In this document: positions 2,344 to 64,000 of the stretch, in pieces
Position numbering within the stretch: the stretch's first letter is position 1
How the letters are laid out: each line of letters starts with the position of its first letter
Assembly (NCBI RefSeq): GCF_030067705.1
Contig: NZ_JASJEX010000002.1
Coordinates: forward strand, 434,001 to 498,000
From: Kribbibacterium absianum
GTDB taxonomy: Bacteria > Actinomycetota > Coriobacteriia > Coriobacteriales > Atopobiaceae
Direction: 5' to 3'
Length of the DNA: 64,000 nt
Notes under the pieces: generated by a model
Seen by the model: only the letters and a program-made list of their open reading frames with translations
Told to the model about the DNA's origin: nothing
Databases searched by the model: none
Position numbers and translations under genes: made by a program

Positions 2344-5300
2344 GTCGCCCCTCGCATGAGGGGCGTGGGTTGAAACGGTGATGCGGCAGGCGAACCCCGT
2401 CAGCTTGGATCGCCCCTCGCATGAGGGGCGTGGGTTGAAACAACCACTACCGCAACTATTCCCTTGCGGACATTGATCGCCCCTCGCATGAGGGGCGTGG
2501 GTTGAAACCGACTTGGCGAGATGGTTGCAATCCAATCCGAGGTCGCCCCTCGCATGAGGGGCGTGGGTTGAAACTTGGGGTCGTAAGGGATTATGGGGCT
2601 AATGGTAGTCGCCCCTCGCATGAGGGGCGTGGGTTGAAACCCCTTACGTTGAAGTCCTTGCAGAGAATGCCGCGTCGCCCCTCGCATGAGGGGCGTGGGT
2701 TGAAACATGGTCGCCCCTTCTTCTAGGCAGTCCGTTACTGTCGCCCCTCGCATGAGGGGCGTGGGTTGAAACATCGACTGGCAACTTATACTATGTGACA
2801 GAGGGGGTCGCCCCTCGCATGAGGGGCGTGGGTTGAAACATCTCGCGGTACTTCACACCGTCGCACTCGAAGCGTCGCCCCTCGCATGAGGGGCGTGGGT
2901 TGAAACGCCAACGACGACGGCAAGGACGCAAAGACCATGGCCGTCGCCCCTCGCATGAGGGGCGTGGGTTGAAACAGCATGCGGAAATGAAGCTCCGAGG
3001 TCGGGATCCTGTCGCCCCTCGCATGAGGGGCGTGGGTTGAAACCCCGTGCTTCCGAAGCCGCCGTCACCCCTCTCTGTCGCCCCTCGCATGAGGGGCGTG
3101 GGTTGAAACAGGAACCCTCGCTTGTTGCCGCCCGCCTTCACCGTCGCCCCTCGCATGAGGGGCGTGGGTTGAAACTTTTTCGTGACCACCTTCAAACGCT
3201 ACCAGGTTGTCGCCCCTCGCATGAGGGGCGTGGGTTGAAACAACAAGGGGGCCGTGAACAAGAACTGCGGCCGCTGTCGCCCCTCGCATGAGGGGCGTGG
3301 GTTGAAACCGGTAGCCAATACATTTGCCAAACGAACCGCTCGGTCGCCCCTCGCATGAGGGGCGTGGGTTGAAACAGCCGCGAGTATGACGATAGCTCGT
3401 ATGCCGGTGTCGCCCCTCGCATGAGGGGCGTGGGTTGAAACCAATCAAGACTGACGCAAGCACTGGCATCGCATGTCGCCCCTCGCATGAGGGGCGTGGG
3501 TTGAAACACATACCCGCGCGCATTGCCAGCGACCAAACCGGGTCGCCCCTCGCATGAGGGGCGTGGGTTGAAACGACGATATGTATTCCTACGCTTGCAA
3601 GGTTGCGTCGCCCCTCGCATGAGGGGCGTGGGTTGAAACAAGACGCCCGAAGTCGAGGGGGCTGCGGCGAGCGTCGCCCCTCGCATGAGGGGCGTGGGTT
3701 GAAACTGACGTCTCCGCGCCACGATATGACGTTCTCCCCGACGTCGCCCCTCGCATGAGGGGCGTGGGTTGAAACTCGCGGATTGCGTCAAGCTCCGCGA
3801 AGGTCTTGGTCGCCCCTCGCATGAGGGGCGTGGGTTGAAACTATGCTCCCATGCTGCCTCCTCCCTTCAATCGTCGCCCCTCGCATGAGGGGCGTGGGTT
3901 GAAACGGCTTCGGCTCGCCGCCAGCGGGCATAGGCTCCGTCGCCCCTCGCATGAGGGGCGTGGGTTGAAACCTCGTCATTGTCCTCACCATTGATGATTG
4001 CCATCGTCGCCCCTCGCATGAGGGGCGTGGGTTGAAACACTTTCTGGCAGCTACACGCTAACGGCTGAGACGAGTCGCCCCTCGCATGAGGGGCGTGGGT
4101 TGAAACCAACATGGAGGCCGAGAAGGGAAGGGCGAGCGACGGTCGCCCCTCGCATGAGGGGCGTGGGTTGAAACGGAACTGGGCGCGTCGTGATGGAAAC
4201 AAAGGCGGTCGCCCCTCGCATGAGGGGCGTGGGTTGAAACCAGATTCGATGAAAGCCACCATGCCGTCTGGCAAGTCGCCCCTCGCATGAGGGGCGTGGG
4301 TTGAAACAACGATGGCGAATAACGGTTTCACTTGGAAATGGCGTCGCCCCTCGCATGAGGGGCGTGGGTTGAAACCTTCTGCGCCTGAATCCTTCCTCGG
4401 TACAGGCGCGTCGCCCCTCGCATGAGGGGCGTGGGTTGAAACCTGCCAGCCCTCAGAAGGTACTTGAGGGCGTTCCCAGTCGCCCCTCGCATGAGGGGCG
4501 TGGGTTGAAACCGTAGCTCCCGTTCTGGTCGCACCATTTCACGGCGTCGCCCCTCGCATGAGGGGCGTGGGTTGAAACAGGTTGACGTGTCAAATTACCG
4601 ACCAAAGTTACCGTCGCCCCTCGCATGAGGGGCGTGGGTTGAAACTACTCCGAGGAAGAACTGGAAGAGCTAAAAGAGGTCGCCCCTCGCATGAGGGGCG
4701 TGGGTTGAAACACGACCCCTTCGAGCCACCCTCGTGAGGCGCTGGTCGCCCCTCGCATGAGGGGCGTGGGTTGAAACGTCCGCGCCGGCAAGTGCATCGC
4801 CTGTGGCGACGTCGCCCCTCGCATGAGGGGCGTGGGTTGAAACCAACAGACGGGGGGGAGCTACACGGCCCAGGTGGTCGCCCCTCGCATGAGGGGCGTG
4901 GGTTGAAACACGACGGCCTTGATCTCGTCCAACGTCACGCGGGTCGCCCCTCGCATGAGGGGCGTGGGTTGAAACCGCCAGCGACGGCGTTCAAGTTGCC
5001 TGCTGCCTGTCGCCCCTCGCATGAGGGGCGTGGGTTGAAACGCGTTCGACAGCCGCGAACTCATCAAGGCGAGGTCGCCCCTCGCATGAGGGGCGTGGGT
5101 TGAAACCAGAACGCGCGCTGCTCGTATGACACGAACCGCAACAGTCGCCCCTCGCATGAGGGGCGTGGGTTGAAACGAGGTGAAGAAGAGCGCCGTCCGC
5201 GACAAGCGCGGTCGCCCCTCGCATGAGGGGCGTGGGTTGAAACCTGAGGGAGAACGTGGTCGCCGACCTCGTGACGTCGCCCCTCGCATGAGGGGCGTGG

Positions 5301-8300: not shown

Positions 8301-11300
8301 TCGCCCCTCGCATGAGGGGCGTGGGTTGAAACTTCGGCGTGAGCAACGACAACCCCTCAAGCTCCGAGTCGCCCCTCGCATGAGGGGCGTGGGTTGAAAC
8401 GATGTCGAGCGCGTCATGTCCGACGGCACCTCGTGTCGCCCCTCGCATGAGGGGCGTGGGTTGAAACATCTTCGAGAACACGGCCTTGCAGTCAGCTACG
8501 AGTCGCCCCTCGCATGAGGGGCGTGGGTTGAAACAGCGTGGCACCGCCGACGCTCACGTCGAGCCTCGTCGCCCCTCGCATGAGGGGCGTGGGTTGAAAC
8601 CTATGCGGCTCCATCACGTAGAGCCCCGGCGGCGGTCGCCCCTCGCATGAGGGGCGTGGGTTGAAACCAGACGGGGGGGAGCTACACGGCCCAGGTGACC
8701 TGTCGCCCCTCGCATGAGGGGCGTGGGTTGAAACCTGGACTAGCCATGCGCCAGGACGAGCTGCGCAGGGTCGCCCCTCGCATGAGGGGCGTGGGTTGAA
8801 ACAGCTGGTGCCCAGATGCTCATGGGCAAGTCGAACAGTCGCCCCTCGCATGAGGGGCGTGGGTTGAAACGCCAGAGGGGCATAGCGTGCAATTGGGGTT
8901 CGGTAGCAGTCGCCCCTCGCATGAGGGGCGTGGGTTGAAACCATTCCTCCTGCTCTGGAACCCCTTCAGGCTCGGTCGCCCCTCGCATGAGGGGCGTGGG
9001 TTGAAACCGCACCGAGCGCGGCGACACGGCCGTGCGCCTGGAGTCGCCCCTCGCATGAGGGGCGTGGGTTGAAACTTGACGTGGTGGGCGTACCAGCCGC
9101 GCAGCACCGTGGTCGCCCCTCGCATGAGGGGCGTGGGTTGAAACTCGGACGAGGATTGGTGCGAGGCGGCCATGGCGTCGCCCCTCGCATGAGGGGCGTG
9201 GGTTGAAACCTCGGTGTCGCCCAAGGGGTCCGGCGTCTCGTCGGTCGCCCCTCGCATGAGGGGCGTGGGTTGAAACGCGTGATGGCGCTGATCACGGGCG
9301 AGACGGTCACGGGTCGCCCCTCGCATGAGGGGCGTGGGTTGAAACGCGTACCAGACCGAGGAGGCGGCCGGCCACGCCCACGTCGCCCCTCGCATGAGGG
9401 GCGTGGGTTGAAACGACGAGAAGTCGCGCGAAATGTCAGCAGCAAACGTCGCCCCTCGCATGAGGGGCGTGGGTTGAAACTGGTGAAGACGGCCAGTCAG
9501 CGCGACGTACGTGCGTCGCCCCTCGCATGAGGGGCGTGGGTTGAAACCCGAGGCGAACGGCGGCCAGAGCCTTGCAAAGAGTCGCCCCTCGCATGAGGGG
9601 CGTGGGTTGAAACACGTCCCAGGTGTCGTCGTTCTTCAGCGGCATCGTCGCCCCTCGCATGAGGGGCGTGGGTTGAAACTGCCCGAGGCCGAGCGTGCCC
9701 GGGTGCATCACGTCGCCCCTCGCATGAGGGGCGTGGGTTGAAACCGCGACCTCCACGACGCGGTGCACAGCGGCAAGAGCGTCGCCCCTCGCATGAGGGG
9801 CGTGGGTTGAAACACAGGCTCGGTACCGACCACTACTGCACCTATGAGTCGCCCCTCGCATGAGGGGCGTGGGTTGAAACGCATTCCTCACGCGCCCCGT
9901 CGATGAGGCGCGAGTCGCCCCTCGCATGAGGGGCGTGGGTTGAAACCAGAAGACGCTCAGCGGGCTTGCCGGGACGCTCCAGTCGCCCCTCGCATGAGGG
10001 GCGTGGGTTGAAACTAGGAACCGCATGACGGCAATCGCCCTGACTCTCGTCGCCCCTCGCATGAGGGGCGTGGGTTGAAACCGTTTCCCCATGCGCCGCT
10101 GATGACCTCGTTTGCGTCGCCCCTCGCATGAGGGGCGTGGGTTGAAACCCGAGGAGAGGGCACTCTACAGCGCACTAAAGATGTCGCCCCTCGCATGAGG
10201 GGCGTGGGTTGAAACAATGGGCAAGACCGCAGGCGCTCTGACTACGCCGCGTCGCCCCTCGCATGAGGGGCGTGGGTTGAAACGCTGCCAAGAGCATCGG
10301 AACGGCTGTCGCCAAGTCGCCCCTCGCATGAGGGGCGTGGGTTGAAACTGGCGAGGAGGTGGACGCCATGGACAACGGAAGCCAGGTCGCCCCTCGCATG
10401 AGGGGCGTGGGTTGAAACCGGTCCTCGAACTCGCGGTGGAGCGCCGCCTCTAGGGTCGCCCCTCGCATGAGGGGCGTGGGTTGAAACTGGGCGTTGGCGT
10501 TGGGCGTGACCGGCGTGCGGGTCGCCCCTCGCATGAGGGGCGTGGGTTGAAACTCGGCGAAGCAGACCAGGTCGCAGAGGGTCGCGGTCGCCCCTCGCAT
10601 GAGGGGCGTGGGTTGAAACACGGATACCTCGTCGCTCTGGTGCAGCCGCATGTGGTCGCCCCTCGCATGAGGGGCGTGGGTTGAAACTGGGCATGGTGCG
10701 CGGACGCCGGGGCCGTCCCGGTGTCGCCCCTCGCATGAGGGGCGTGGGTTGAAACGGACAGGACGTACCGACAGTGCCTCATAGAGTGGGGTCGCCCCTC
10801 GCATGAGGGGCGTGGGTTGAAACGGTGATAATGCGCTCGATGCCGCAGCTGCTCGTGTCGCCCCTCGCATGAGGGGCGTGGGTTGAAACAAGAGGACATG
10901 GGAAAGCTGTCGGTCGCGGCGCGTCGCCCCTCGCATGAGGGGCGTGGGTTGAAACCCTGCGGCACCACGTTGGCGGCCGCCGCTCCCAGCGAGTCGCCCC
11001 TCGCATGAGGGGCGTGGGTTGAAACAACATCAGCGTCTGCGACGTAAACGAGGTGCAGTGTCGCCCCTCGCATGAGGGGCGTGGGTTGAAACTTGTGTGT
11101 CGCATTGCATCTCATCGACCCGTCCCGTCGCCCCTTGCATGAGGGGCGTGGGTTGAAACAACGCGGAGGCGGGGGCGCTGGCCGCGAACCTCGTGTCGCC
11201 CCTCGCATGAGGGGCGTGGGTTGAAACCCCATCGTGCTGCTGTCCGAGGGCAGCAAGACCGTCGCCCCTCGCATGAGGGGCGTGGGTTGAAACGGCACGA

Positions 11301-14300
11301 CCTGGCCGACATCAAGGACCTGATTGTCGCCCCTCGCATGAGGGGCGTGGGTTGAAACAACCGTAAGATAGACGCCGACTACTACTACCAGAGGTCGCCC
11401 CTCGCATGAGGGGCGTGGGTTGAAACCACTTCCCCAAGGGCTACGGGGGCGACCTGCGCGGCGTCGCCCCTCGCATGAGGGGCGTGGGTTGAAACTTAGA
11501 GAGGAACCGCATGAACCCCAAGTACCTGGACAGTCGCCCCTCGCATGAGGGGCGTGGGTTGAAACGCCACGGAGCCTGCTGGACGAGCTGTCGGACAAGC
11601 GTCGCCCCTCGCATGAGGGGCGTGGGTTGAAACAAGAACATCGAGCTTGACGGCTTCCTCGCTGGTGCGGTCGCTCCTCGCATGAGGGGCGTGGGTTGAA
11701 ACCGGCACGTCGCAGCACGGCGTCGCCGCCCGCCACGTCGCCCCTCGCATGAGGGGCGTGGGTTGAAACTGCCCGATGTGCGGGGAGGACCTAAGGAGGC
11801 ACGGTCGCCCCTCGCATGAGGGGCGTGGGTTGAAACAGGAAGTGGACGATCGTGCCGCCGGCGTCGTCGTGTCGCCCCTCGCATGAGGGGCGTGGGTTGA
11901 AACCACGGGCGGTTCTCGGCGTTCGAGTCATACGAGAGTCGCCCCTCGCATGAGGGGCGTGGGTTGAAACCGCAAGTACGTGGAGGGTCAGAAGATTCGC
12001 ACGCGTCGCCCCTCGCATGAGGGGCGTGGGTTGAAACAACGCTGGCTCTGGCACTGGCGGTGCCAACTCGCAGAGTCGCCCCTCGCATGAGGGGCGTGGG
12101 TTGAAACAACGCTGGCTCTGGCACTGGCGGTGCCAACTCGCAGAGTCGCCCCTCGCATGAGGGGCGTGGGTTGAAACTACTTCCTCATGCACACCGAGGT
12201 GGGCGACGACGGTCGCCCCTCGCATGAGGGGCGTGGGTTGAAACTAGACCGCCACGTTCGCGTCGGCGATGGGAGCGTCGTCGCCCCTCGCATGAGGGGC
12301 GTGGGTTGAAACCGGGACTCCCGCACATCGCGGTGGAACCCCGTGGTCGCCCCTCGCATGAGGGGCGTGGGTTGAAACCCGCCGGCGCGATCGGGCGGAC
12401 CGGCGGCCCCGTCGCCCCTCGCATGAGGGGCGTGGGTTGAAACAGATGCTTTGGTTGGTACCCGGAGACATCGCTGGTCGCCCCTCGCATGAGGGGCGTG
12501 GGTTGAAACTACGACTCGAAGTACGCGACCCTGGACCAGGTCGGTCGCCCCTCGCATGAGGGGCGTGGGTTGAAACGATGGCCTTATCGAGGGCTGACGC
12601 GGCCGGCGCCATGTCGCCCCTCGCATGAGGGGCGTGGGTTGAAACCCTTGCGGCTGTCCCACCAGCCGAGCAGCTCACGGCGTCGCCCCTCGCATGAGGG
12701 GCGTGGGTTGAAACACGACAAGCTGACCCAGATCGCCGACGCCATGTCGCCCCTCGCATGAGGGGCGTGGGTTGAAACCGGGACTCCCGCACATCGCGGT
12801 GGGACCCCGTGTGGTCGCCCCTCGCATGAGGGGCGTGGGTTGAAACGTCCAGGCTCCTCAGACATTCCGGGCACAGGTCGGCGTCGCCCCTCGCATGAGG
12901 GGCGTGGGTTGAAACTCGGGCACAGCGTCGATGCCGATGCCGTCCGGCTGTCGCCCCTCGCATGAGGGGCGTGGGTTGAAACTCACCCGGAGCCTAGGCT
13001 CCTGCGACCCTCTTGGGTCGCCCCTCGCATGAGGGGCGTGGGTTGAAACGGCTCCCACATCACGCAGTAGCCGTCCGGCGGCACGTCGCCCCTCGCATGA
13101 GGGGCGTGGGTTGAAACCGTTCGGATGGCCGCGCGTTCACCGTCCGGCTCGGTCGCCCCTCGCATGAGGGGCGTGGGTTGAAACGCTCTCCTCGGTCTCG
13201 TCCACGCAGCGCCCGCAGGCGTCGCCCCTCGCATGAGGGGCGTGGGTTGAAACTTGTCCGCGTCGATGATGAAGGTGGTTGACGGGTGTCGCCCCTCGCA
13301 TGAGGGGCGTGGGTTGAAACTTGGAGTAATCGGCCTCCATGGTCTCCGTGACGGTCGCCCCTCGCATGAGGGGCGTGGGTTGAAACCAGCCGCTCGCCAA
13401 CGGCCCCAACCAGGTGGGCTGGTCGCCCCTCGCATGAGGGGCGTGGGTTGAAACTCCTTTCGACGAGCCTCAAGGGCGCGGCGCGCCCTCGTCGCCCCTC
13501 GCATGAGGGGCGTGGGTTGAAACCTCTTTGCCGCGCCTACGCCACTCTGTGATCGTGTCGCCCCTCGCATGAGGGGCGTGGGTTGAAACTTTTATGTATT
13601 GATCAGCCAAAGTCTGAGCTTGGTCGCCCCTCGCATGAGGGGCGTGGGTTGAAACTGAAATCGGGGGGAGCTTCTTCTGAGGTCTTTTTGGTCGCCCCTC
13701 GCATGAGGGGCGTGGGTTGAAACCCCCGGCCGCTCACCAGCACGCCCTTCAAGGCCGGTCGCCCCTCGCATGAGGGGCGTGGGTTGAAACGTTCGGATGC
13801 TCTGCGCACCGGAAGGGCTCGCGTAGTCGCCCCTCGCATGAGGGGCGTGGGTTGAAACCTTCCGGGAGTCACCCGGTGTCGGACACCACCTAGGCGTCGC
13901 CCCTCGCATGAGGGGCGTGGGTTGAAACGACAAGGCCACGGGTTTTGCCCAAGTGGAGGAGGGGTCGCCCCTCGCATGAGGGGCGTGGGTTGAAACTCGG
14001 CCTCCCCGCACCCGCAGGAGCGCGTGTTGCGTCGCCCCTCGCATGAGGGGCGTGGGTTGAAACTATCAGGCCGTCGGCATGATAGACGGCTCCAACGTCG
14101 CCCCTCGCATGAGGGGCGTGGGTTGAAACTCATGTCGGCTGACGTCCCGCTGCAGGCAGTGGAGTCGCCCCTCGCATGAGGGGCGTGGGTTGAAACATCG
14201 TCCGGTTCAGGCTCGTCAGGGCCATCACCGGTCGCCCCTCGCATGAGGGGCGTGGGTTGAAACGCGCTTCCGTTGCCATGCGCGTCACCTCCCGTCTCGT

Positions 14301-15071
14301 CGCCCCTCGCATGAGGGGCGTGGGTTGAAACCACATGTACACAGCCAGATATGGAGGCATGTTGTTGGTCGCCCCTCGCATGAGGGGCGTGGGTTGAAAC
14401 ATTGACCTACTCGGAGAAGCAGGCGGCGAAAGAGAACGTCGCCCCTCGCATGAGGGGCGTGGGTTGAAACGAGTCCATCTCGGCGAACCCCATGATGTAC
14501 TGGGCGTCGCCCCTCGCATGAGGGGCGTGGGTTGAAACGACGACAACCTCGCCAAGATCGCGGACGCCATCGTCGCCCCTCGCATGAGGGGCGTGGGTTG
14601 AAACCGCCTGAACAAGGACGCCGAGGACATTGTCATGGGTCGCCCCTCGCATGAGGGGCGTGGGTTGAAACGTCCTACCGGTGTGGCTCACCACCCAAAC
14701 GTTCAGGTCGCCCCTCGCATGAGGGGCGTGGGTTGAAACTCGTGACCCGCGTACACCATCGCGTCCGGGTGAGTCGCCCCTCGCATGAGGGGCGTGGGTT
14801 GAAACTGGTCAGAGGCCGTGCGTGCCGCACTCAGCGACGTCGCCCCTCGCACGAGGGGCGTGGGTTGAAACACGAAGGGCGGGCGCACCTACACGCCCAA
14901 GGACGTCGCCCCTCGCATGAGGGGCGTGGGTTGAAACACAGGGGACATGCCGCTCAGGTCCAACGTGGTCAGTCGCCCCTCGCATGAGGGGCGTGGGTTG
15001 AAACGCGAACGAGGGTCGAAAGTTCGGGCTGCTGCTGAGTCGCCCCTCGCACGAGGGGCGACGGCTGAAAC
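2344..15071 (+). CRISPR. Type I-C CRISPR array, about 190 repeats and 189 spacers
   Basis: The repeat is 33 bp. It begins GTCGCCCCTCGCATGAGGGG and ends GTGGGTTGAAAC, with an inner hairpin CCCCTC/GAGGGG, typical of type I-C. Counting repeat ends by hand gives 190 repeats. The total length of 12,728 bp then implies a mean spacer of 34 nt, and the spacers I measured are 32-37 nt. Almost all repeats are identical. Exceptions are A instead of G at the first base of repeats 2 and 3 (2409, 2476), single changes at 11127-11159, 11670-11702 and 14839-14871, and a clearly degenerate last repeat (15039-15071). The leader and newest spacers are therefore at the left, next to cas2. Several spacers are duplicates or shifted versions of one another. 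Protospacer origins cannot be determined here. Confidence 0.99.
12005..12144 (+). repeat. Tandem duplication of one repeat-spacer unit in the CRISPR array
   Basis: The 37-nt spacer at 12038-12074 is repeated exactly at 12108-12144, each preceded by an identical repeat. A duplicated 70-bp unit from recombination or replication slippage between identical repeats is the simplest explanation. An assembly artefact is also possible. Confidence 0.9.
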
Positions 15072-21860: not shown

Positions 21861-24479
21861 CTAGGCCTCTTGGCGCGCGGGCTTCTCCGTTGCGCGCGGC
21901 ATCGGGCGGAACAGCTGGATGATGATGCCGGCCAGGCACAGGATCGCCACCACGGTCCAGAACCCGAAGTTCCCCAGCGCGAACAGCTCCCACAGCTGGT
22001 TGATGATGAGGCCCACGACCCAGCCGAAGCCGCACTGGTAGGCGATAGCGGCCCAGAACCACTTGGTGTCCGCCATCTGGCGGCGGATGGTGCCGATGGC
22101 CGCGAAGCACGGGGCGTCAAGCATGTTGAACGCCACAAAAGCGAGCATCGCACCGAGGGACAGCGTGCCGCCCACGGTGAACATCTGCGCGAACGTGGCC
22201 CAGAGGAGCGCGGAGCCCTCGCCGACCTCGCCGAGACCGAAGAGCACGCCAAAGGTGGACACGAGGTTCTCCTTGGCGATGAGCGCGGAGAGCGAGCACG
22301 CGGCGGCCTGCCAGGTGCCAAAGCCGAGCGGCGCGAAGATCCAGGCGATCGCGTTGCCCACGCCGGCGAGCATCGACCAGTTCATGTAGTTCTCGGGCGC
22401 GTCGGCCATCTCGGGCAGGAACCCGAAGGCGCCAGAGCCGCTGTCCCAGCCGGCCACGCCGAAGTTGGACAGGAACCACACGCCCACGCAGGCCACGAAG
22501 ATGATCGTGCCGGCCTTGCGGATGAACGCCCAGACGCGCTCCCACACGTGGAGCAGGTAGCTCTTGAGGGCCGGGAGGTGGTACGCGGGCAGCTCCATCA
22601 CGAACGGCGCCGGCTCGCCCGCGAAGGGCTTGGTCTTCTTGAGCATGATCGCGGAGACGATCACCGCAGCGAGGCCGAGGAAGTAGAAGAACGGGGCGAT
22701 CCACCAGCCCTCGGTGCCGCCGATCAACACGCCCATGAGCAGGGCGATGATCGGGGTCTTGGCGCCGCAGGGGATCATCGTGGTGAGCATGACGGTCATG
22801 CGGCGGTCGCGGTCGTTCTCGATGGTCTTGGTGGCCATGATGCCGGGGACGCCGCAGCCGGAGCTCACGAGCAGCGGGATGAAGGACTTGCCCGAGAGGC
22901 CGAAGCGGCGGAACGCGCGGTCCATGACGAAGGCCACGCGGCTCATGTAGCCGCAGTCCTCGAGGAAGCAGAGGAGCAGGAAGAGCACGATCATCTGCGG
23001 CACGAAGCCGAGGATGGAGCCCACGCCGCCGACGATGCCGTCGAGCACGAGGGACTTCACCAGCTCGGAGGCGCCGGCGTCGTCGAGCCAGCCCTCCACC
23101 ACCACCGGCACGCCGGGCACGTAGACGCCGTACTCGCCGGGGATGGGCTCCTCGGCGTTGGCGGCCGCAAGGAAGGCCTCGGCGTCGATGGTGTCGTGGT
23201 ACGCGAGGGTCTGGCCGTCGGAGAGGAGCGGGTCGTCCTCGGCGTCGGTGAGGACCACGTTGCCCTCGGAGTCGAGGAAGTTGCCGTCGGCGTCGTGCAG
23301 CGGGGCGTCGGGGACGGTCACACCGGCCGCGCTCGCGGCCTCGGCAAAGGCCTGGACGCGCGCGGCGTCCCCGCTCTCGATGGCCTCGGCGACGCCGTCG
23401 GTGTCAACGCCGGCGGCGTCGGCTGCGGCGAGGTACTCGTCGACCACGGTGCCGTAGTCCTCGTCGTCGTAGGCGCCCTGGGCCTCCTCGTAGGACTGGG
23501 CGGCGGCCGGTGAGAGGAACCAGCCGTCGCCGAAGAGCCCGTCGTTGGCCCAGTCGGTGCCCCAGGTGCCCACCGTGGAGACGGCCAGGTAGTACACGAG
23601 CACCATCACACACACAAAGATGGGGAGGCCGAGGATGCGGTTCGTGACCACCCGGTCGATCTTTTCGGAGGTGGTGAGGGCCTTGGGCGCCTTGACGACG
23701 CAGCGGCGCATCACGCCCTCGATCCAGTCGTAGCGCTCGGTGGTGATGATGGACTCGGCGTCGTCGTCCAGCTCGGCCTCGACGCCGGCACGGATGGTGC
23801 CGATGGCGGCGAGCGACGCGGCCGGGAGGCCGAGGGTGTCGAGGGCCTTCTCGTCGCCCTCGAAGGCCTTGATGGCGAACCAGCGCTCGGGCTGGCCGGC
23901 GGAAAGGTGCGGCTTGAGGACGTCGGCGGTCTCTTGGATGGCCTTCTCGACGCGCGGCGAGAACACCCGGGGCGCCCGGCCCGTTCTTCCTGTCGTTGCG
24001 AGACTCTCGGCCGTGCCCATGAGCTGGTCGAGCCCCTGGGAGCGGAGCGCGGAGCCCTTGACGACGGGGCAGCCGAGCTCGCTGCTCAGGGCGTCGACGT
24101 CCAGCTGGTCGCCGCTCTTCTCGAGCAGGTCGCACATGTTGAGCCCGACGACGGTGGGGAGGCCGCACTCGAGCACCTGCGTGGTGAGGTAGAGGTTGCG
24201 CTCGAGGTTGGTGACGTCCACGAGGTCGATGACGGCGGACGGTCGGTCCTTTACGAGGTGGTCGCGGCTGACGACCTCTTCAGGGGAGTAGGGCGAGAGC
24301 GAGTAGATGCCCGGCAGGTCCGTGATCACGACGTCCTTGTTCTTGCGCCACGGGGCCTCGAGCTTCTCCACGGTGACGCCGGGCCAGTTGCCCACGTAGC
24401 CGTTGGAGCCGGTGAGCTGGTTGAAGAGGGTGGTCTTGCCGCAGTTGGGGTTGCCGGCAAGGGCAATGGTGATGGCCAT
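21861..24479 (-). CDS. feoB: Ferrous iron transporter FeoB
   Basis: FeoB imports Fe2+ across the cytoplasmic membrane. I place the start at the ATG at 24479, because AGGGAGAA lies just upstream and the protein then begins MAITIALAGNP, directly on the G domain; a start at 24518 would add 13 unrelated residues. The resulting 872-residue protein has GNPNCGKT (residues 9-16), DLPG (about 54-57) and NMCD (about 115-118). A helical domain and the two-lobed Gate membrane core follow; near the middle there is an acidic extracytoplasmic loop of about 150 residues. Around residues 160-167 the sequence TTGRTGRAP is encoded by an RPT-A copy (23982-24001), apparently in a tolerant loop. It lies downstream of two feoA genes on the same strand. 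Confidence 0.95.
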   Translation of the reverse strand: MAITIALAGNPNCGKTTLFNQLTGSNGYVGNWPGVTVEKLEAPWRKNKDVVITDLPGIYSLSPYSPEEVVSRDHLVKDRPSAVIDLVDVTNLERNLYLTTQVLECGLPTVVGLNMCDLLEKSGDQLDVDALSSELGCPVVKGSALRSQGLDQLMGTAESLATTGRTGRAPRVFSPRVEKAIQETADVLKPHLSAGQPERWFAIKAFEGDEKALDTLGLPAASLAAIGTIRAGVEAELDDDAESIITTERYDWIEGVMRRCVVKAPKALTTSEKIDRVVTNRILGLPIFVCVMVLVYYLAVSTVGTWGTDWANDGLFGDGWFLSPAAAQSYEEAQGAYDDEDYGTVVDEYLAAADAAGVDTDGVAEAIESGDAARVQAFAEAASAAGVTVPDAPLHDADGNFLDSEGNVVLTDAEDDPLLSDGQTLAYHDTIDAEAFLAAANAEEPIPGEYGVYVPGVPVVVEGWLDDAGASELVKSLVLDGIVGGVGSILGFVPQMIVLFLLLCFLEDCGYMSRVAFVMDRAFRRFGLSGKSFIPLLVSSGCGVPGIMATKTIENDRDRRMTVMLTTMIPCGAKTPIIALLMGVLIGGTEGWWIAPFFYFLGLAAVIVSAIMLKKTKPFAGEPAPFVMELPAYHLPALKSYLLHVWERVWAFIRKAGTIIFVACVGVWFLSNFGVAGWDSGSGAFGFLPEMADAPENYMNWSMLAGVGNAIAWIFAPLGFGTWQAAACSLSALIAKENLVSTFGVLFGLGEVGEGSALLWATFAQMFTVGGTLSLGAMLAFVAFNMLDAPCFAAIGTIRRQMADTKWFWAAIAYQCGFGWVVGLIINQLWELFALGNFGFWTVVAILCLAGIIIQLFRPMPRATEKPARQEA
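23982..24001 (+). repeat. RPT-A copy within feoB
   Basis: CGTTCTTCCTGTCGTTGCGA reads on the plus strand, antisense to feoB. It keeps the invariant 11-base core and the terminal GCGA. In feoB's frame it encodes part of the segment ATTGRTGRA, between the G domain and the following helical region. Confidence 0.85.
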
Positions 24480-32691: not shown

Positions 32692-32763
32692 GGACTCTCG
32701 GCACGTGGAGCAGGAGGTCGGCAGATCGGCGCGCGCTTCTCAGATCACGGCGAGGCCTTGGCC

Positions 32764-32801
32764 CGTTCTTCCTGCTGTTTCGTGGAACAGCAGGAAGAAC
32801 G
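32764..32801. terminator. RPT-A inverted pair after the DUF362 gene
   Basis: A forward copy CGTTCTTCCTGCTGTTTCG (32764-32782) is followed two bases later by a reverse copy GAACAGCAGGAAGAACG (32785-32801). The two form a compact hairpin with about 17 paired bases between the convergent DUF362 and LCP genes. It probably terminates one or both transcripts. Confidence 0.8.
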
Positions 32802-32849
32802 GCATGCCCGCGTTGTGGCGGGTCGCTTCACCCATCACGTACGACGGGG

Positions 32850-34298
32850 CTAGTACTTGTCGGCCATATCCTGGCCCAGGATCACCACCACTGCGGGGTC
32901 GAAGCCCTCGGGTGTCCCGCTCGGCGCGGCCGTCAGCACGCCCGTCACTGAGAGACCCAGGCGGTCCGCCACTGCAAGTGCGAGTCCTTGGTTGCCGTTG
33001 CCCACCGCGAGGACCTCGGTCGTCGAGTGGTCAAAGGTGTCCGCCGACACCGCCTCGCAGGTGTAGCCGGCGCTCCGCAGCGATGTCGCCACCGACCCAG
33101 CCAGGCCGTTCACGCCCGCCCCGTTCATCACGAGCACCGTGCCGCCGGTCGCGCTGGTCGACCCGCTTGTGCCGCTCGCACCAGAGCTGCTGGAACTGCC
33201 TGTGCCGTCGTCGTTCTTGATGGCGCTCGAGGAGCCCGCGACGTCGCGCGTGAAGTCGTCGTCCTCGCTCGCGTAGGGCGACAGGCCCGCGTTCACGCGC
33301 TCCATCATCGTTCGCCACTCGTCCTCCTTGATCACGTCGTACCAACCGCCGTTGATGTACTTGGACTCGGTGGGGGTGAGGCCGCTCATCAGGTTGGTCG
33401 ACGGGTCGAAGCCCCGGAAGGAGCCGGCGAGCGACAGGATGTCCGTCAGCGACAGGTCCGTGGTCACGGAGCCGGCCAGTTGGTTCACGCTTGCCGCGAT
33501 GGTGGCGGGGCTGCTCGCGAGGATCTTCTTGAGGATGGCGCCGATCACCATGCGTTGGTTCGCGGTGCGGTAGTAGTCGCCGCCTCCGTAGTTGTCGTAG
33601 GCGTGGCGCGCCCGGCAGAGGGCGAGGGCCTGCTCTCCGTTGATGGTCTGCCGGCCCGCCTTGAGGTGCAGCCCGGCCAGGTCGTCGTCCAAATCGATCT
33701 TGATGTCGACGTCGATGCCGCCGATGGTGTCCACCACCTTGACGAACTCGTCGAAGTTGATCTCGGCGTAGTGCGAGATGTCCACGCCCGCCAGTTTGCT
33801 CACCATGTCCACTTCGTAGCCCGCCCCGCCGATGGTGTACGCGGCGTTGACCTTCTGCTCGCCGTGGTCGCCCATGTCCACGAGGATGTCGCGCTCGATG
33901 GAGACGAGCGTCACCTCCTTGCTGGCGGGGTCGATGCGCGCGAGCATGATCGAGTCCGAGCGATAGACGCCGTCGGTGGAGCCGGTCTCCTCGCGCTCGG
34001 CGGACTTGTCGGTGCCGAGCAGCAGCATGTAGAACGGCTTGGTCACGGTGGTGCGCGTGAGCGACGAGAGCAGCCCCGAGTCCACGCCCGCGGACAGGCG
34101 CGACTGGATGGTGCCGAGGTAGATCGCGAGACCCACCACCGCGCAGGCCGCGACGACGCCGACGCCGACCAGGACGCCCTTCACGCCGCGGCGCCGCTTC
34201 TGCTGGTGCCGCTTGGTGACGTAACGGTTGGCGGAGCGCTCGCGCGAGAGCGAGGACGCGTTGGAGAGCTGTCGTTGCGGGCGGTTCTTCTGTGACAA
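32850..34298 (-). CDS. LytR-CpsA-Psr (LCP) family cell-wall ligase
   Basis: A 482-residue protein. It starts with a basic cytoplasmic stretch and has one membrane segment (about 41-63). The LCP catalytic domain follows (about 90-300), with FYMLLLGTD, YRSDSIMLARID, SIERDILVDM and CRARHAYDNYGGGD. A Ser/Gly-rich linker leads to a C-terminal LytR_C domain (about 390-482: VLVMNGAGVNGLAGSVA, VVVILGQDMADKY). LCP enzymes transfer polyisoprenol-linked glycopolymers to peptidoglycan. The start is most likely the TTG at 34298, preceded by AAAGGA. It is a close paralogue of the divergently transcribed gene at 34636; about 340 bp separate them. Confidence 0.92.
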   Translation of the reverse strand: MSQKNRPQRQLSNASSLSRERSANRYVTKRHQQKRRRGVKGVLVGVGVVAACAVVGLAIYLGTIQSRLSAGVDSGLLSSLTRTTVTKPFYMLLLGTDKSAEREETGSTDGVYRSDSIMLARIDPASKEVTLVSIERDILVDMGDHGEQKVNAAYTIGGAGYEVDMVSKLAGVDISHYAEINFDEFVKVVDTIGGIDVDIKIDLDDDLAGLHLKAGRQTINGEQALALCRARHAYDNYGGGDYYRTANQRMVIGAILKKILASSPATIAASVNQLAGSVTTDLSLTDILSLAGSFRGFDPSTNLMSGLTPTESKYINGGWYDVIKEDEWRTMMERVNAGLSPYASEDDDFTRDVAGSSSAIKNDDGTGSSSSSGASGTSGSTSATGGTVLVMNGAGVNGLAGSVATSLRSAGYTCEAVSADTFDHSTTEVLAVGNGNQGLALAVADRLGLSVTGVLTAAPSGTPEGFDPAVVVILGQDMADKY

Positions 34299-34635
34299 GC
34301 TTAGATTCCTTTCGAGCCGTGTCGCAGGCTCATAGTAACGAGCGCACTCTGGGCGGTGGCCTTCTGCACAAGAAGCGCTCCAAACCGAACGCCTGGATCG
34401 AGTGTCCTGTCATTACGCTGATTTCAGTCGCTTGGGCCTTCTGTTGGAGCTTTGGGCTCGGCCGCTCCCGAGGAGACTGATAACGCGCGAGCGTTTACCA
34501 TGGACAGCGTTCAGTCAGCTTGAAGCATCGTGCTGAGCTGCCGAGCCGCCCCTATCCGGAGGGCTGACCGATTGGCCCTCCGTCTCATCTGCCGTCCCCG
34601 CGCGCCTCGCGGGTTCCTCAGTCTGGAGAGGACGA
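34299..34635. other. Intergenic region between divergent LCP genes
   Basis: No gene is supported. The stretch is less GC-rich than the flanking genes and must contain promoters for both LCP genes. I see no -10/-35 pair that is clearly better than chance, and no RPT-A copy. Confidence 0.5.
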
Positions 34636-36096
34636 GTGAAGCAAAAGCCCGATATCCAGGAGCCGCAGACCCCCGACCTGAGCCGCGACAGCGCTCAGGA
34701 GCACTACGGCGCCAAGCTCAAGAAGCGGCGCCTCAGGAAGGGCGTCAAGGTGGCGCTCATTGCCGTGGCCGTTGTGGCCGTGGGCGTCATCGCCGGACTC
34801 GCCTGGTACCTCAACGACGTCCAGTCGCGCCTCAACAAGGGTGTCGACGGCAATCTCTTGCAGGCGCTCACGCAGCAGACCTCGAAGGAGGACCCGTTCT
34901 ACATGCTGCTGCTCGGCGTGGACAAGTCCGAGGAGCGCGCGGAGAGCGACGAGTACGGCAAGGACGACTCCTACTACCGCAGCGACTCCATCATGTTGGC
35001 GCGCATCGACCCGCAGACGCCGCAGGTGACGCTCGTCTCGATACATCGCGACACGCTGGTCGACCTCGGCGAGCATGGCCAGCAAAAGATCAACGCGGCC
35101 TACTCGTTCGGCGGCCCGAGCTACGCCGTGGACGTGGTCAGCGAGTTCGCCGGCGTGCCCATCTCGCATTACGCCGAGATCGATTTCGACCACTTCGCCG
35201 AGATTGTGGACACGCTGGGCGGCATCGAGGTGGATGTGCCCATCGACATCAACGACCCGATGGCCGGCGAGCCCATCAAGGCCGGCCGGCAGACCCTCAA
35301 CGGCCAGCAGGCGCTCACGCTCTGCCGTAGCCGCCACGCCTACGACAACTACGGCGACGGCGACCTGTACCGCGCCGCCAACCAGCGCATGGTGATCGCC
35401 GCCATCTGCAAGAAGATCCTCGCGAGCGACACGGCCACGATGACGGCGAGCATCTCGAAGCTGGCGGACTCTGTGACCACCGACCTGTCGCTCACGGACA
35501 TCCTCAACCTCGCGAGCGAGATGAAGGGCATCAACATGGACACGGACGTTTACACGGGCATGGAGCCCACGACGTCCTCCTACGTGAACAACACCTGGTA
35601 CGAGATCTGTGACACCGATGCGTGGCGCACGATGATGCAACGCGTGAACCAAGGCCTCTCGCCCTATGAGAGCGCCGACGACGACCCCGCAGGCGATGCG
35701 GCCGGCGGCACGACCAACGTGAAGAACGAGGGCGGCACCGCCGCGACCGACTCTACGGCGGGCGCGGGCAGCGTGGCCAACACGTCGGACGACGACTTGA
35801 AGAGAGACCAGACCGGAACCGTCGAGGTGTTGAACGCCGCCGGCGTGGACGGTCTGGCCGGGCGTGTGTCGCAGAGCCTCGCGACCTACGGGTGGGCCAC
35901 GAACGCCGGCACCGCGGTGAACCACTACGACACAACGGCGGTGGTGTACTTCGACGAGAGCCAAAAGGCCAACGCGGAGGCCGTGGCGAAGGCGCTCGGC
36001 GGCGAGGTGCGGGTGCTGAACGGCACGGGGACGTACACGGACAACGGTGCGGATGTGCTCGTGGTGCTCGGCACCGACATGGTGGACTACGAGTAA
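34636..36096 (+). CDS. LytR-CpsA-Psr (LCP) family cell-wall ligase, paralogue
   Basis: A 486-residue paralogue of the gene at 32850-34298, with the same plan. A basic N-terminus leads to one membrane segment (about 36-57). The LCP domain has FYMLLLGVD, YRSDSIMLARID, SIHRDTLVDL and CRSRHAYDNYGDGD. A linker rich in Ala, Gly and Thr follows, then a LytR_C domain (VEVLNAAGVDGLAGRVS to VVLGTDMVDYE). The start is the GTG at 34636 after GAGAGGACGA. Two neighbouring copies suggest different glycopolymer substrates or redundancy. Downstream lie three tandem RPT-A copies and a strong terminator. Confidence 0.93.
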   Translation: MKQKPDIQEPQTPDLSRDSAQEHYGAKLKKRRLRKGVKVALIAVAVVAVGVIAGLAWYLNDVQSRLNKGVDGNLLQALTQQTSKEDPFYMLLLGVDKSEERAESDEYGKDDSYYRSDSIMLARIDPQTPQVTLVSIHRDTLVDLGEHGQQKINAAYSFGGPSYAVDVVSEFAGVPISHYAEIDFDHFAEIVDTLGGIEVDVPIDINDPMAGEPIKAGRQTLNGQQALTLCRSRHAYDNYGDGDLYRAANQRMVIAAICKKILASDTATMTASISKLADSVTTDLSLTDILNLASEMKGINMDTDVYTGMEPTTSSYVNNTWYEICDTDAWRTMMQRVNQGLSPYESADDDPAGDAAGGTTNVKNEGGTAATDSTAGAGSVANTSDDDLKRDQTGTVEVLNAAGVDGLAGRVSQSLATYGWATNAGTAVNHYDTTAVVYFDESQKANAEAVAKALGGEVRVLNGTGTYTDNGADVLVVLGTDMVDYE

Positions 36097-36111
36097 CGCC
36101 GGCCCGTCTCT

Positions 36112-36183
36112 CGTTCTTCCTGCTGTTGCGAGAGGCCCGTTCTTTCTGTTGTTTCGAGAGGTTCGTTCTTCCTGCCGTTTTGA
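36112..36183 (+). repeat. Three tandem RPT-A copies, exactly 26 bp apart
   Basis: Forward copies begin at 36112, 36138 and 36164. Each is followed by GAGGCC or GAGGTT, so the unit is a 26-bp tandem. The middle bases differ among copies (CTGTTGC, TTGTTTC, CCGTTTT) while the core is kept, except TTCTTTCTG in the second. Confidence 0.9.
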
Positions 36184-36185
36184 GA

Positions 36186-36225
36186 GGCCGGGCGCCCCCT
36201 TGTTGGTGGGGCGCCCGGCCTTTTG
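36186..36225 (+). terminator. Strong intrinsic terminator of the LCP gene
   Basis: GGCCGGGCGCCCC (36186-36198) pairs with GGGGCGCCCGGCC (36208-36220) and is followed by TTTT. It directly follows the third tandem RPT-A copy. Confidence 0.92.
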
Positions 36226-36270
36226 CATGGGGCTGCGCGTGGCATCCGATGCGGCGCCTGGGGCGCAGGT

Positions 36271-36363
36271 ACGAAACGACAGGAAAAACGGGGCAGCCTG
36301 TGGAGGCTGCCCCGTGCACGCTTTGGCATGAAGAACGATGTGCGCGTTTTGGCAGGAAGAACG
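36271..36363 (-). repeat. Three reverse RPT-A variants with a terminator hairpin between
   Basis: Reverse copies lie at about 36271-36290, 36319-36337 and 36345-36363. Between the first two is the hairpin GGGGCAGCCT/AGGCTGCCCC (36290-36313). Read on the minus strand, as the PfkB transcript would be, the hairpin is followed by CGTTTTTCCTGTCGTTTCG. The RPT-A copy therefore supplies the U-tract, and its TTCTT has become TTTTT. Confidence 0.85.
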
Positions 36364-36374
36364 ATTGGCCGCTG

Positions 36375-42561: not shown

Positions 42562-43074
42562 ATGTCGTTCCGAGAATTGGCCGCCGCCCGGTACTCCTGC
42601 AAGAAGTACGACCCCACGCCGGTGGACCCGGGCGACCTCGAGTATGTGCTGAGTTGCGGGCGCCTGGCCCCCACGGCCAAGAACCTGCAGGAGCAGCGCG
42701 TGTACGTTTTAGCAGGTAGAACGGATCTTGATAAGGTGGACTCGATCACGCCCTGCCGTTACGGGGCGCCGGTGGTCCTGCTCGTGGCCTGGGACACCGA
42801 GAACGTGTTCACGTACCCGGGCGGGAAGCGGGACTCGGGCGCCGAGGACGCGTCCATCGTCGCGACGCACCTGATGCTGGCCGCCGCGGAGTGCGGGCTC
42901 GGCAGCTGCTGGGTCAACTTCTTCGATCCCGCCGAGGCCAAGGAGGCCTTCGGGCTGCCGGAGAACGAGGAGGTGCTGATGCTCCTTGATCTCGGCCACC
43001 CGGCGGCCGACGGAGGCCCCTTGGCGAACCACGGGCTGCGGAAGCCGCTCGAGGAGACGGTGGTCCGCCGCTGA
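42562..43074 (+). CDS. Nitroreductase-family flavoprotein
   Basis: A 170-residue nitroreductase-like protein: MSFRELAAARYSCKKYDPTPV, LAPTAKNLQEQRVYV, MLAAAECGLGSCWVNFFDP and LLDLGHPAADGGP. Such enzymes bind FMN and reduce nitro or quinone compounds with NAD(P)H. The residues VLAGRTDLDK are encoded over a reverse RPT-A variant (42705-42723), in a region between the first core and the dimer segment that is variable in the family. It is divergent from the macrodomain gene. Downstream lies an RPT-A cluster shared with the convergent activase gene. Confidence 0.9.
   Translation: MSFRELAAARYSCKKYDPTPVDPGDLEYVLSCGRLAPTAKNLQEQRVYVLAGRTDLDKVDSITPCRYGAPVVLLVAWDTENVFTYPGGKRDSGAEDASIVATHLMLAAAECGLGSCWVNFFDPAEAKEAFGLPENEEVLMLLDLGHPAADGGPLANHGLRKPLEETVVRR
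42705..42723 (-). repeat. RPT-A variant within the nitroreductase gene
   Basis: The plus strand reads CGTTTTAGCAGGTAGAACG. Its reverse complement, CGTTCTACCTGCTAAAACG, differs from the core by one base (TTCTACCTG). The same core variant occurs at 62275. It lies in frame and adds no stop. Confidence 0.65.
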
Positions 43075-43082
43075 AACCGCCC

Positions 43083-43203
43083 CGTTCTTCCTGCTGTTGC
43101 GAGAACAGGGTCGTTCACCTGCGGCGTCGCAATAGCAGGAAGAACGCCGTGCCGCTCTCGCAACAGCAGGAAGAACGACCCCGTCGCAACAGCAGGAAGA
43201 ACG
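43083..43203. repeat. RPT-A cluster: one forward and three reverse copies
   Basis: A forward copy at 43083-43102 reads in the direction of the nitroreductase gene. Reverse copies at 43127-43146, 43158-43177 and 43184-43203 read in the direction of the convergent activase gene. The last two are 26 bp apart. A degenerate forward copy (CGTTCACCTG) lies at about 43112. Each orientation therefore follows the gene that ends there. Confidence 0.9.
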
Positions 43204-43215
43204 ATCCGGCAGCCG

Positions 43216-46725: not shown

Positions 46726-46737
46726 ACCCGCGCGCCC

Positions 46738-47003
46738 CGTTCTTCCTGCTAAAGCGAGCCTGCAGGTCTCGACCGTGATGCGCGCAACAGCAGGAAGAAC
46801 GCGGCGAAGGACGGAGCGCGCCTCTGCGACCCGACCGCGGGGTTCGCGCCCCGTTCTTCCTGCTAAAGCGCCGCTGTCCACAGGGTTCCAAACCGCCCGG
46901 AACGGCATGAAAAACGGAGCCGGCCCAATCAGGGGCTGGCTCCGTTCCTGTTCCTCTCGCAACAGCAGGAAGAACGAGCGGTCTCGCAACAGCAGGAAGA
47001 ACG
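46738..47003. repeat. RPT-A cluster between convergent genes, with a terminator
   Basis: Forward copies lie at 46738-46757 and 46852-46871 (both with the CTAAAGCG variant). Reverse copies lie at 46783-46801, 46957-46976 and 46984-47003 (27 bp apart), plus a variant at about 46899-46916. The hairpin GGAGCCGGCCC/GGGGCTGGCTCC (46916-46943) read on the minus strand runs into GTTTTTC from that variant, ending the aminotransferase transcript. Confidence 0.88.
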
Positions 47004-47011
47004 CGCCGGCG

Positions 47012-51414: not shown

Positions 51415-51447
51415 TCCTGCTCGACCTGCCCAATCTACCTGCGGTTT

Positions 51448-51689
51448 CGTTCTTCCTGCTGTTTTGAGAGGGGCGCCGGCGACGGTGCCCCTCTCGTTTT
51501 CGTTCTTCCTGCTGTTGCGAGGGGAGCGTTCTTCCTGCCGTTTTGAGATGGTCGTTCTTCCTGCTGTTGGAGCTCCTCGACTCTGAGCCCCTGCGCGAAA
51601 CGACAGGAAGAACGGGCGCGGCTCCGGATGCGCGAAACGACAGGAAAAAGGGTTCGTGACCCCGGATGCGCGAAACGACAGGAAGAACG
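51448..51689. repeat. RPT-A cluster after tatC: four forward, three reverse copies
   Basis: Forward copies begin at 51448, 51501, 51527 and 51553; the last three are 26 bp apart and the first gap is 53 bp. Reverse copies begin at about 51596, 51633 and 51671, 37-38 bp apart. The hairpin GAGAGGGGC/GCCCCTCTC (51466-51495) followed by GTTTT terminates tatC; its left arm includes the last bases of the first RPT-A copy. Confidence 0.9.
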
Positions 51690-51741
51690 AGAGGGCGCCC
51701 GCAGGCGCTGCAAATCCCCTGAACGTTTGCCGGCTCGCCCC

Positions 51742-60158: not shown

Positions 60159-60291
60159 CGTTCTTCCTGTCGTTGCGGACTGGCTCGTTCTTCCTGCCGT
60201 TCCGGACGTGCCGTCGAACCGCATCCGTTCTTCCTGCTGTTGCGCGAATCCGCAGCGTGCGGCCGCCATTGTCGCAATAGCAGGAAGAACG
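60159..60291. repeat. RPT-A cluster: three forward and one reverse copy
   Basis: Forward copies begin at 60159, 60186 (27 bp later) and 60226; a reverse copy with CAATAG occupies 60272-60291. They follow the stop of the surface protein gene. Confidence 0.9.
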
Positions 60292-60405
60292 GCCGCGCCC
60301 TCCGGTTTGTTACAACCGCCCGCAGAACCCCGCGCCCTGGGTGGACTTTCGCTTCCGTCTCACTCATAGTGGCCCCACAGAGAACCCCGCACCCAAGGAA
60401 CCGCC

Positions 60406-62218: not shown

Positions 62219-62233
62219 CCGTCCTGTCCCGCC

Positions 62234-62294
62234 CGTTCTTCCTGCTATTGCGAGAGGAGCCGCTGCGCCGGCTCCGTTCTACCTGCTGTTTCGT
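62234..62294 (+). repeat. Two forward RPT-A copies between metI and metQ
   Basis: Copies at 62234-62253 (CTATTGCGA) and 62275-62294 (core variant TTCTACCTG, then CTGTTTCG). They lie inside the transporter operon. Confidence 0.85.
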
Positions 62295-62374
62295 GCATTG
62301 TGGCTCCGACCTTGCGGTTTGTGCGCTCCTCGGGGGAGAGGCGCCGGAGCCCAGAAGACCTGAAGGAGAGAGAC

Positions 62375-63235: not shown

Positions 63236-63252
63236 CATCTGGCCTGCGGTTT

Positions 63253-63451
63253 CGTTCTTCCTGCTGTTGCGAGTTGGTGTTCTTCCTGCTGTTTCGTGAA
63301 GCGGGCGCTCCTCAAGGGCGCCCGCTTCCGTTCTTCCTGTCGTTTCGCGTTGTGGCGAACCCTCCGCTCTGCTGCAGCGGAGCTTGTGGTGGCGCACCGT
63401 TCTTCTTGCCAATGCGACGCAGCAGCGGCTCTCGCAACAGCAGGAAGAACG
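63253..63451. repeat. RPT-A cluster and terminator after metQ
   Basis: Forward copies begin at 63253, 63278, 63329 and 63398; a reverse copy is at 63432-63451. The hairpin GCGGGCGC/GCGCCCGC (63301-63325) is followed by TTCCGTTCTTCC, so an RPT-A copy again forms the pyrimidine tail. The reverse copy follows the convergent Elp3-like gene. Confidence 0.9.
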
Positions 63452-63460
63452 GAAGGCGTC

Positions 63461-64000
63461 TCAATCCAGGAATCGCCGCTGGTAGAGGCCGTCGTCCTCG
63501 AAGCCGAGCGCTCGATAGTAGCCGCGCGTCCCGACCGCGCTGATCACGGCAACGGAGACCCGTCCGGCTGCCCGTGCCTGACGGCACGCCTCCTCCACCA
63601 GCTCGCGGCCGAGGCCACGGTGCTGGGACCACTGCCCCTCCTGGTCCAGCCGCGCTGCGCGTCCGTACACATGCACCTCTCGGATCATCGCCGCATCGGC
63701 TCGGGCCGGTGTCGAGGAGGGTCTCGCAACGGCAGGAAGAACGGGCTCCGTCGCAACAGCAGGAAGAACGGGGAGTGAGAGGCGCAGGAAGCCGTGCAGG
63801 GTCCCATCCTCGGCCACCCATTCGAGGAACCGCTCCTCGGACACGGTGGTGAAGTAGCGCAGAGTTCGCAGGCGCAGATCACTGGGACCCTCCGGCGCCA
63901 ACGCCACTTCTCGGAACCGGATCTCCTGCACCGGGAGGTCCCGGTCGCGCAGGCGCCGCTCGACGTCCTGTCGCAGGTTCGCCTGGCGGTTCCCCGCCAC
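63461..64000 (-). CDS. Elp3-like radical SAM/GNAT tRNA-modification protein, C-terminal part
   Basis: The 3' end of a gene whose start is beyond the window; the frame is open to the edge. The visible 179 residues match the C-terminal acetyltransferase half of Elp3: ANLRQDVERR, EIRFREV, then MIREVHVYGRAA, QHRGLGRELVEEA and VISAVGTRGYYRALGFEDDG. Elp3 makes the carboxymethyl-type modification at the wobble uridine of tRNA; the radical SAM half would lie upstream. Between GFLRLSLP and the IREVHVYG segment there is an extra loop, LPAVATEPVLPAVARP, encoded by two RPT-A copies. The loop is where family members vary in length. Confidence 0.88.
   Translation of the reverse strand: MAGNRQANLRQDVERRLRDRDLPVQEIRFREVALAPEGPSDLRLRTLRYFTTVSEERFLEWVAEDGTLHGFLRLSLPVLPAVATEPVLPAVARPSSTPARADAAMIREVHVYGRAARLDQEGQWSQHRGLGRELVEEACRQARAAGRVSVAVISAVGTRGYYRALGFEDDGLYQRRFLD
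63723..63770 (-). repeat. Two RPT-A copies in frame inside the Elp3-like gene
   Basis: TCGCAACGGCAGGAAGAACG (63723-63742) and TCGCAACAGCAGGAAGAACG (63751-63770), 28 bp apart, read in the sense direction of the gene. Each encodes PVLPAVA, so the protein carries that heptapeptide twice. Confidence 0.92.

Follow-up and report, generated by a model that had tools for sequence, protein, structure and literature searches.

Short repeats in bacteria are usually distributed genome-wide, and the restriction of a motif to one chromosomal domain is known from matS/MatP of the terminus macrodomain. The Rickettsia palindromic elements of Ogata et al. are reportedly palindromic insertions of 100-150 bp that lie in frame in conserved genes. 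In addition, accumulation of REP sequences in regions of up to 200 kb around rayt genes has been reported (Nunvar 2010, PMC2817692). This RAYT-proximal accumulation is the closest known counterpart of RPT-A, a 22-nt repeat found in the draft genome (2.18 Mb in 7 contigs) of a bacterium of the class Coriobacteriia, part of which is the window (G000:C2:434001-498000), the whole stretch of 64,000 nucleotides analyzed here. RPT-A resembles REP, BIME, and REPIN sequences (PMC2817692, PMC3116915) in being short, intergenic, located at gene 3' ends, tandem or inverted, species-specific, and present in many copies, and it also shares the regional accumulation within 200 kb, as all copies lie within 142 kb; family H of the same genome, described below, is another such case. 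Unlike these sequences, RPT-A shows no association with RAYT, no self-palindrome, and no pairing of convergent arms, and 14-17% of its copies are intragenic, many of them without a change in gene length. RPT-A appears to be either a mobile repeat that stays local or a group of protein-binding sites, of a type for which no clear earlier description is known.

The RPT-A consensus, CCGTTCTTCCTGCTGTTGCGAG, was taken from a position matrix built on strict matches, in which the positions TT.T.C..G.......G are near-invariant and constraint is strongly uneven (0 to 80 mismatches of 160 by position). Since the matrix was trained on the copies it scores, single-copy scores are relative, while background counts are independent. 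The score distribution had two modes and showed no surplus of weak matches, and the two orientations were balanced among the strict matches (41/45). The self-folding energy of the consensus (-0.7 kcal/mol) was no better than that of shuffled sequences, and the imperfect palindrome that characterizes each REP unit was not found in RPT-A.

The copies were confined to one part of contig C2, where about 177 of them occupy 142 kb and almost none occur elsewhere. The strict pattern matched the genome 86 times, 85 of these on C2 between 457983 and 599427, and the matrix (threshold of at least 13 bits) identified 175 copies in C2:457981-560327, a density of approximately one per 0.6 kb. In a scan of about 99% of the genome (~2.16 Mb), further copies above 20 bits were found only at C2:592930 and C2:599408, beyond a copy-free gap at C2:561-592 kb. 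Outside the core region, scores exceeded 18 bits at just four places, the best after these two outlying copies being 19.9 and 18.6 bits, and the top score in 794 kb outside the region was 16.7 bits. Approximately 93% of the genome is free of RPT-A. Among 398 other Coriobacteriales genomes, all from other genera, the pattern occurred at most twice per genome. The region contains core genes in conserved order, including topA, rplM, glmS, alr, and tsaBD, and carries the native repeat family B at or above its normal density; therefore, it is native chromosome, and the core genes rule out a foreign island. A terminus macrodomain, hinted at by a local change in GC skew, was also considered and dropped, since dnaA lies at C2:200481 and the skew is weak everywhere, too weak for placing the terminus. 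The region is located 0.26-0.40 Mb from dnaA and from a parS-like site at C2:194519; parS sites of canonical type were found near dnaA only.

Within the region, 145 of the 175 copies are intergenic, although intergenic DNA makes up only 15% of it (gene models are our own calls), so RPT-A shares with REP sequences the property of a short repeat with many extragenic copies. Behind genes, 65 gaps measure 45 bp or more; RPT-A is present in 50 of them, and in 45 of these 50 the first copy behind the stop codon is in sense orientation, mostly at a distance of 3-21 nt. Tandem copies prefer spacings of 25-29 or 36-41 nt and convergent pairs mostly 44-46 nt, with unconserved linkers. Adjacent tandem copies were more similar to each other than random ones. 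Complementarity of the arms of convergent pairs was no higher within pairs than between pairs (17.38 vs 17.33 of 22; p=0.43, 26 pairs), and inverted pairs are not kept complementary as they are in REP sequences. Selection for a transcription terminator or an RNA hairpin was rejected, as the arms show no covariation, and an apparent 10.5-bp rhythm that might have indicated helical phasing faded once the main mode was removed and is not claimed. The features of the window are listed in Table 1.

Table 1. Locations of RPT-A copies and related features, in window coordinates.
Feature	Position	Strand
CRISPR spacer s22 (31 nt), with a full-length genome match at C2:506653-506683, inside an RPT-A array	3842..3872	+
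Leftmost copy in the region, antisense in feoB (LATTGRTG), ungapped against solved FeoB	23981..24002	+
RPT-A pair forming a near-perfect palindrome	32763..32802	
Intergenic array, 3 plus and 3 minus copies	36111..36364	
Degenerate RPT-A in nitroreductase (YVLAGRTD, 22.7 bits), ungapped against solved homologues	42703..42724	-
Intergenic array downstream of the nitroreductase gene	43082..43204	
Intergenic array downstream of a pyruvate formate-lyase-like gene	46737..47004	
Intergenic array downstream of tatC	51447..51690	
Largest array of the window, downstream of topA; 4 plus copies followed by 4 minus copies	54462..54708	
Two copies in the N-terminal region of an ABC permease (56231-56252, 56338-56359)	56231..56359	+
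Intergenic convergent pair and a further copy, 12 nt past the permease stop codon	57356..57460	
Intergenic array, first copy 11 nt past a stop codon	58257..58407	
Intergenic array	58941..59046	
Intergenic array, 3 plus and 1 minus copies	60158..60292	
Intergenic pair after an ABC permease gene	62233..62295	+
Intergenic array, 4 plus and 1 minus copies, between NlpA-lipoprotein and Elp3-like genes	63252..63452	
Elp3-like gene, 3' part, hosting five RPT-A-like copies (full ORF C2:497461-499362, 633 aa)	63461..64000	-
Two tandem copies (27 nt apart) in the Elp3-like gene, encoding PVLPAVATEPVLPAVAR	63723..63771	-

The conserved gene cluster rplM-rpsI-glmM-glmS-acpS-nnr-alr-udg-tsaE-tsaBD, whose order is kept in five relatives, allowed the junctions with and without RPT-A to be compared. 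Junctions with RPT-A were mostly ~50-290 bp longer here than in the five relatives, with the exception of acpS-nnr, which is shorter here than in relative G011; the rpsI-glmM junction is longer by 1.2-1.4 kb, where a gene was also gained. Junctions without RPT-A had the same length within ~20 bp across the five relatives, the exceptions being glmS-acpS in G015 and two comparisons of tsaE-tsaBD, which are non-adjacent in the relative. Because the junctions with RPT-A are longer and those without it essentially unchanged, the intergenic arrays represent DNA gained relative to these relatives. This supports, for the intergenic arrays, the initial sequence-only reading, put forward for coding DNA, that the element spreads or is gained; that reading also finds a parallel in kind in family H within GltB and GltD (see below). 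The conserved operons of this genome display before-and-after states of array gain. The gene at the rpsI-glmM junction (C2:503769-505100) has RPT-A on its flanks and is absent at this junction in the five relatives.

Thirty copies overlap called genes, essential ones among them, and the number of coding sites in the region far exceeds that expected by chance: 24 sites of at least 18 bits were observed vs a mean of 0.7 after synonymous recoding, and 14 of at least 24 bits vs 0.08. The in-frame copies described in FeoB, the permease, and the nitroreductase are real. The statement that all such copies keep the reading frame was also correct, although it carries little weight because the consensus is free of stop codons in all six frames and most in-gene copies are length-neutral. 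RPT-A resembles the Rickettsia palindromic elements as a repeat in frame within conserved genes, but differs from them in its 22-nt non-palindromic units and in its mostly length-neutral in-gene copies.

An insertion-like case is the Elp3-like gene, in which two in-frame copies between the conserved segments FLRLSLP and IREVHVYG were confirmed at 63723-63771. These copies (63723-63744 and 63750-63771, minus strand) encode PVLPAVAT and PVLPAVAR, and 11 more residues (SSTPARADAAM) precede IREVHVYG. The tandem fills a loop that varies from ~3 to 30 residues among 31 aligned homologues, and none of the 31 has these residues, as the initial reading had anticipated. Judged from these alignments, the tandem appears insertion-like. 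Three further RPT-A copies in this gene lie past the window end, at 64324, 64679, and 65076 in window numbering. The copy encoding FTLWQEER adjoins a 7-residue insertion, and the other two (RGIAGET and VLQAKPR) are aligned without gaps. The named relatives of this protein were only Coriobacteriia MAGs, and a scan of genome contigs with Elp3 gave only two distant loci.

The proposal that the element enters coding DNA where loops tolerate it is only partly right: it is supported for the Elp3 tandem, but not for FeoB or the nitroreductase, in which the copies are ungapped against solved homologues. Insertion likewise fails to account for GlmS AVLYADAP, Alr TVLHAETH, UDG VGAAGKKL, TsaBD LGKAGRTM, and the two ungapped Elp3 copies, and the permease region with RPT-A is, if anything, shorter than in the one close homologue. 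A second GlmS copy, SRLSRKNA, sits within a 3-residue insertion. In total, at least eight of the in-gene copies leave the length unaltered (judged from alignments to relatives of ~50-75% identity or to solved homologues) and match the motif largely via rare codons; their residues are family-typical in several cases, and their codons, such as GTT, CTT, AAA, and AGA, are rare for this GC-rich genome. The length-neutral copies fit the motif by way of substitutions, largely to rare synonymous codons, and not by a clean insertion of 20-50 bp. Insertion leaves them unexplained, and they suggest a preference for the motif as a DNA sequence as well. Such copies, fitting the motif via synonymous codons, provide a means of testing insertion against selection for a DNA site.

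The genome also contains other repeat families and five RAYT-type (PF01797) genes, none of which is on C2. Family B consists of 33-nt units (TGGACGCTTCGGAGAGAGCCATTTGTCCACG; ~223 sites genome-wide), flanks its RAYT gene (C1:174277, L091) on both sides, and has a three-fold higher density within 75 kb of it. Family G flanks another RAYT gene. Family H is a palindromic repeat (GGGACACAGGTGTCGGACACGTGTCCC) that folds into a hairpin of -7.8 kcal/mol; of its 130 sites, 104 lie on C5, around the RAYT gene at C5:60009. It ranges over C5:11-147 kb, where copies inserted in core genes such as GltB and GltD, and also in HisA and others, keep the frame and encode GTQVPDASVP-like peptides. Compared with solved homologues, GltB has gained 25 and GltD 49 residues in frame, largely as such peptides. 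Family C is a 33-nt near-perfect palindrome (ATGTGCATTTAGGGACAGTCCCTAAATGCACAT) with 70 sites genome-wide. RPT-A resembles family H in its confinement and intragenic share (14% vs 17% for family H), but lacks a RAYT gene, a self-hairpin, and pairing of convergent arms. No RPT-A was found at the four RAYT loci examined, no copy of at least 20 bits lies near any of the five, and no RAYT gene is flanked by RPT-A. Furthermore, no transposase was detected in the RPT-A region by the genome RAYT search, by Pfam analysis of ~60 genes, or by inspection. RPT-A is not filed as REP, because palindrome, arm pairing, and RAYT linkage were each tested and found to be absent. One genome thus presents, side by side, a regional repeat with RAYT (H), a genome-wide repeat with RAYT (B), and a regional repeat without RAYT (RPT-A). 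In relatives of genus g3, which belongs to the same taxonomic family (e.g., G002 and G106), a motif, GGTTCTTCTCGCC, occurs genome-wide in both orientations, reaching several hundred copies in a genome (GTTCTTCTCGC, 413 copies in G002; GTTCTTCYYGC, 568 in G106), and it has the core GTTCTTCYYG in common with RPT-A.

Our leading explanation, tentative and close to evenly balanced, is that RPT-A is an orphan regional repeat similar to REP/BIME, inserted mainly behind stop codons. A short non-autonomous unit would have multiplied and been inserted as tandem and convergent arrays, mostly just behind stop codons and within ~140 kb of its starting point, with occasional entry into coding loops that tolerate it, as in Elp3. 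The transposase responsible would now be lost or have escaped recognition; we infer this enzyme, its hopping over short distances, and its subsequent loss. Observed facts in favour of this explanation are the regional confinement, the gained DNA at junctions, the position at stop codons, the similarity of tandem copies, and the existence of family H as an analogue; the enrichment of family B near its RAYT gene, the published REP regions of up to 200 kb, and the native character of the region also speak for it. Against it stand the lack of a transposase, a self-hairpin, arm pairing, or isolation by distance, and the length-neutral in-gene copies. Present-day local copying from parent to neighbour was rejected, since isolation by distance among copies was not significant (Mantel p=0.15).

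The substitution-type coding copies, the uneven constraint, and the unpaired arms point to selection for a DNA-binding site, instead of or in addition to insertion. Accordingly, the main rival explanation, possible but on the doubtful side, is that RPT-A is the site of a sequence-specific protein that marks and organises (or silences, or protects) a domain of 100-140 kb, its arrays having been gained and its in-gene sites having arisen by selected substitutions. The rare-codon, length-neutral copies in conserved enzymes and their excess over synonymous recoding are consistent with this, as are the preferred spacings with unconserved linkers, the absence of isolation by distance, and the arms, which evolve independently like separate sites and unlike a hairpin. 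However, a candidate protein is lacking, the density of copies is far above that of known macrodomain sites, the sense orientation directly behind stop codons is unexpected for a pure DNA-binding role, and the bimodal scores without excess weak matches do not favour it. As in matS/MatP, the motif is limited to one chromosomal domain, but RPT-A is ~50 times denser, is arrayed, lies at the above distance from dnaA, and shows no centring on the terminus. That RPT-A marks a single 100-140 kb domain as putative protein sites, under selection strong enough to have bent synonymous codons in GlmS, Alr, TsaBD, UDG, and Elp3 to the motif, seems rather unlikely; if true, the bacterium would have a chromosome-marking system that is dense and limited to one region.

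Import of the region by recombination, as a block from a close relative that has RPT-A genome-wide, is improbable. It would fit the sharp limits, the core genes inside, the copies without spatial structure, and the absence of family C from the region (0 vs 4.2 expected, p=0.014). Nevertheless, the donor would need family B too, since this family is present inside, and would carry some 3,700 copies at such a density, while no cluster was found in any of the 398 other Coriobacteriales genomes. A DNA-uptake-type signal, by which motif-bearing DNA would be preferentially taken up and recombined so that the motif accumulates, is similarly improbable: the conserved core, the equally frequent orientations, the convergent pairs behind genes, the synonymous in-gene copies, and the genome-wide motif of genus g3 with its common core recall the uptake sequences of Neisseria and Pasteurellaceae, but those are genome-wide, whereas RPT-A is restricted to one region and was gained as multi-copy arrays, and uptake drive leaves such inserted arrays of 50-290 bp unexplained.

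The window also contains a CRISPR array of type I-C (2344-15071, 190 repeats) with cas genes on its left; cas3, cas5c, cas8c, cas4, cas1c, and cas2 were confirmed by model, and cas7 by position only. Of its 189 spacers, only s22 had a full-length match in the genome sequence examined, within the RPT-A array of the glmM-glmS junction, where it is flanked by two identical 38-nt copies bearing RPT-A (C2:506614-506720). For type I-C, the TTC criterion applies. The match has the exact limits of the spacer and no TTC in front, and because of these features and its repeat-spacer-repeat build, the structure suggests off-target integration by Cas1-Cas2 with target duplication. A search of viral contigs and phages for the source of s22 gave no match. 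CRISPR adaptation as a general origin of the arrays was rejected, as a spacer with duplication occurs at one RPT-A pair only. Structures of the same repeat-insert-repeat build are present at C2:87553 (35-nt repeat, 33-nt insert) and C2:556074 (36-nt repeat, 31-nt insert), with inserts that are not in the CRISPR array. Additionally, two inverted paralogous genes, 77% complementary over arms of 490 nt, were identified at 33427-35513 of the window, one of which belongs to the LytR-CpsA-Psr family (Pfam).
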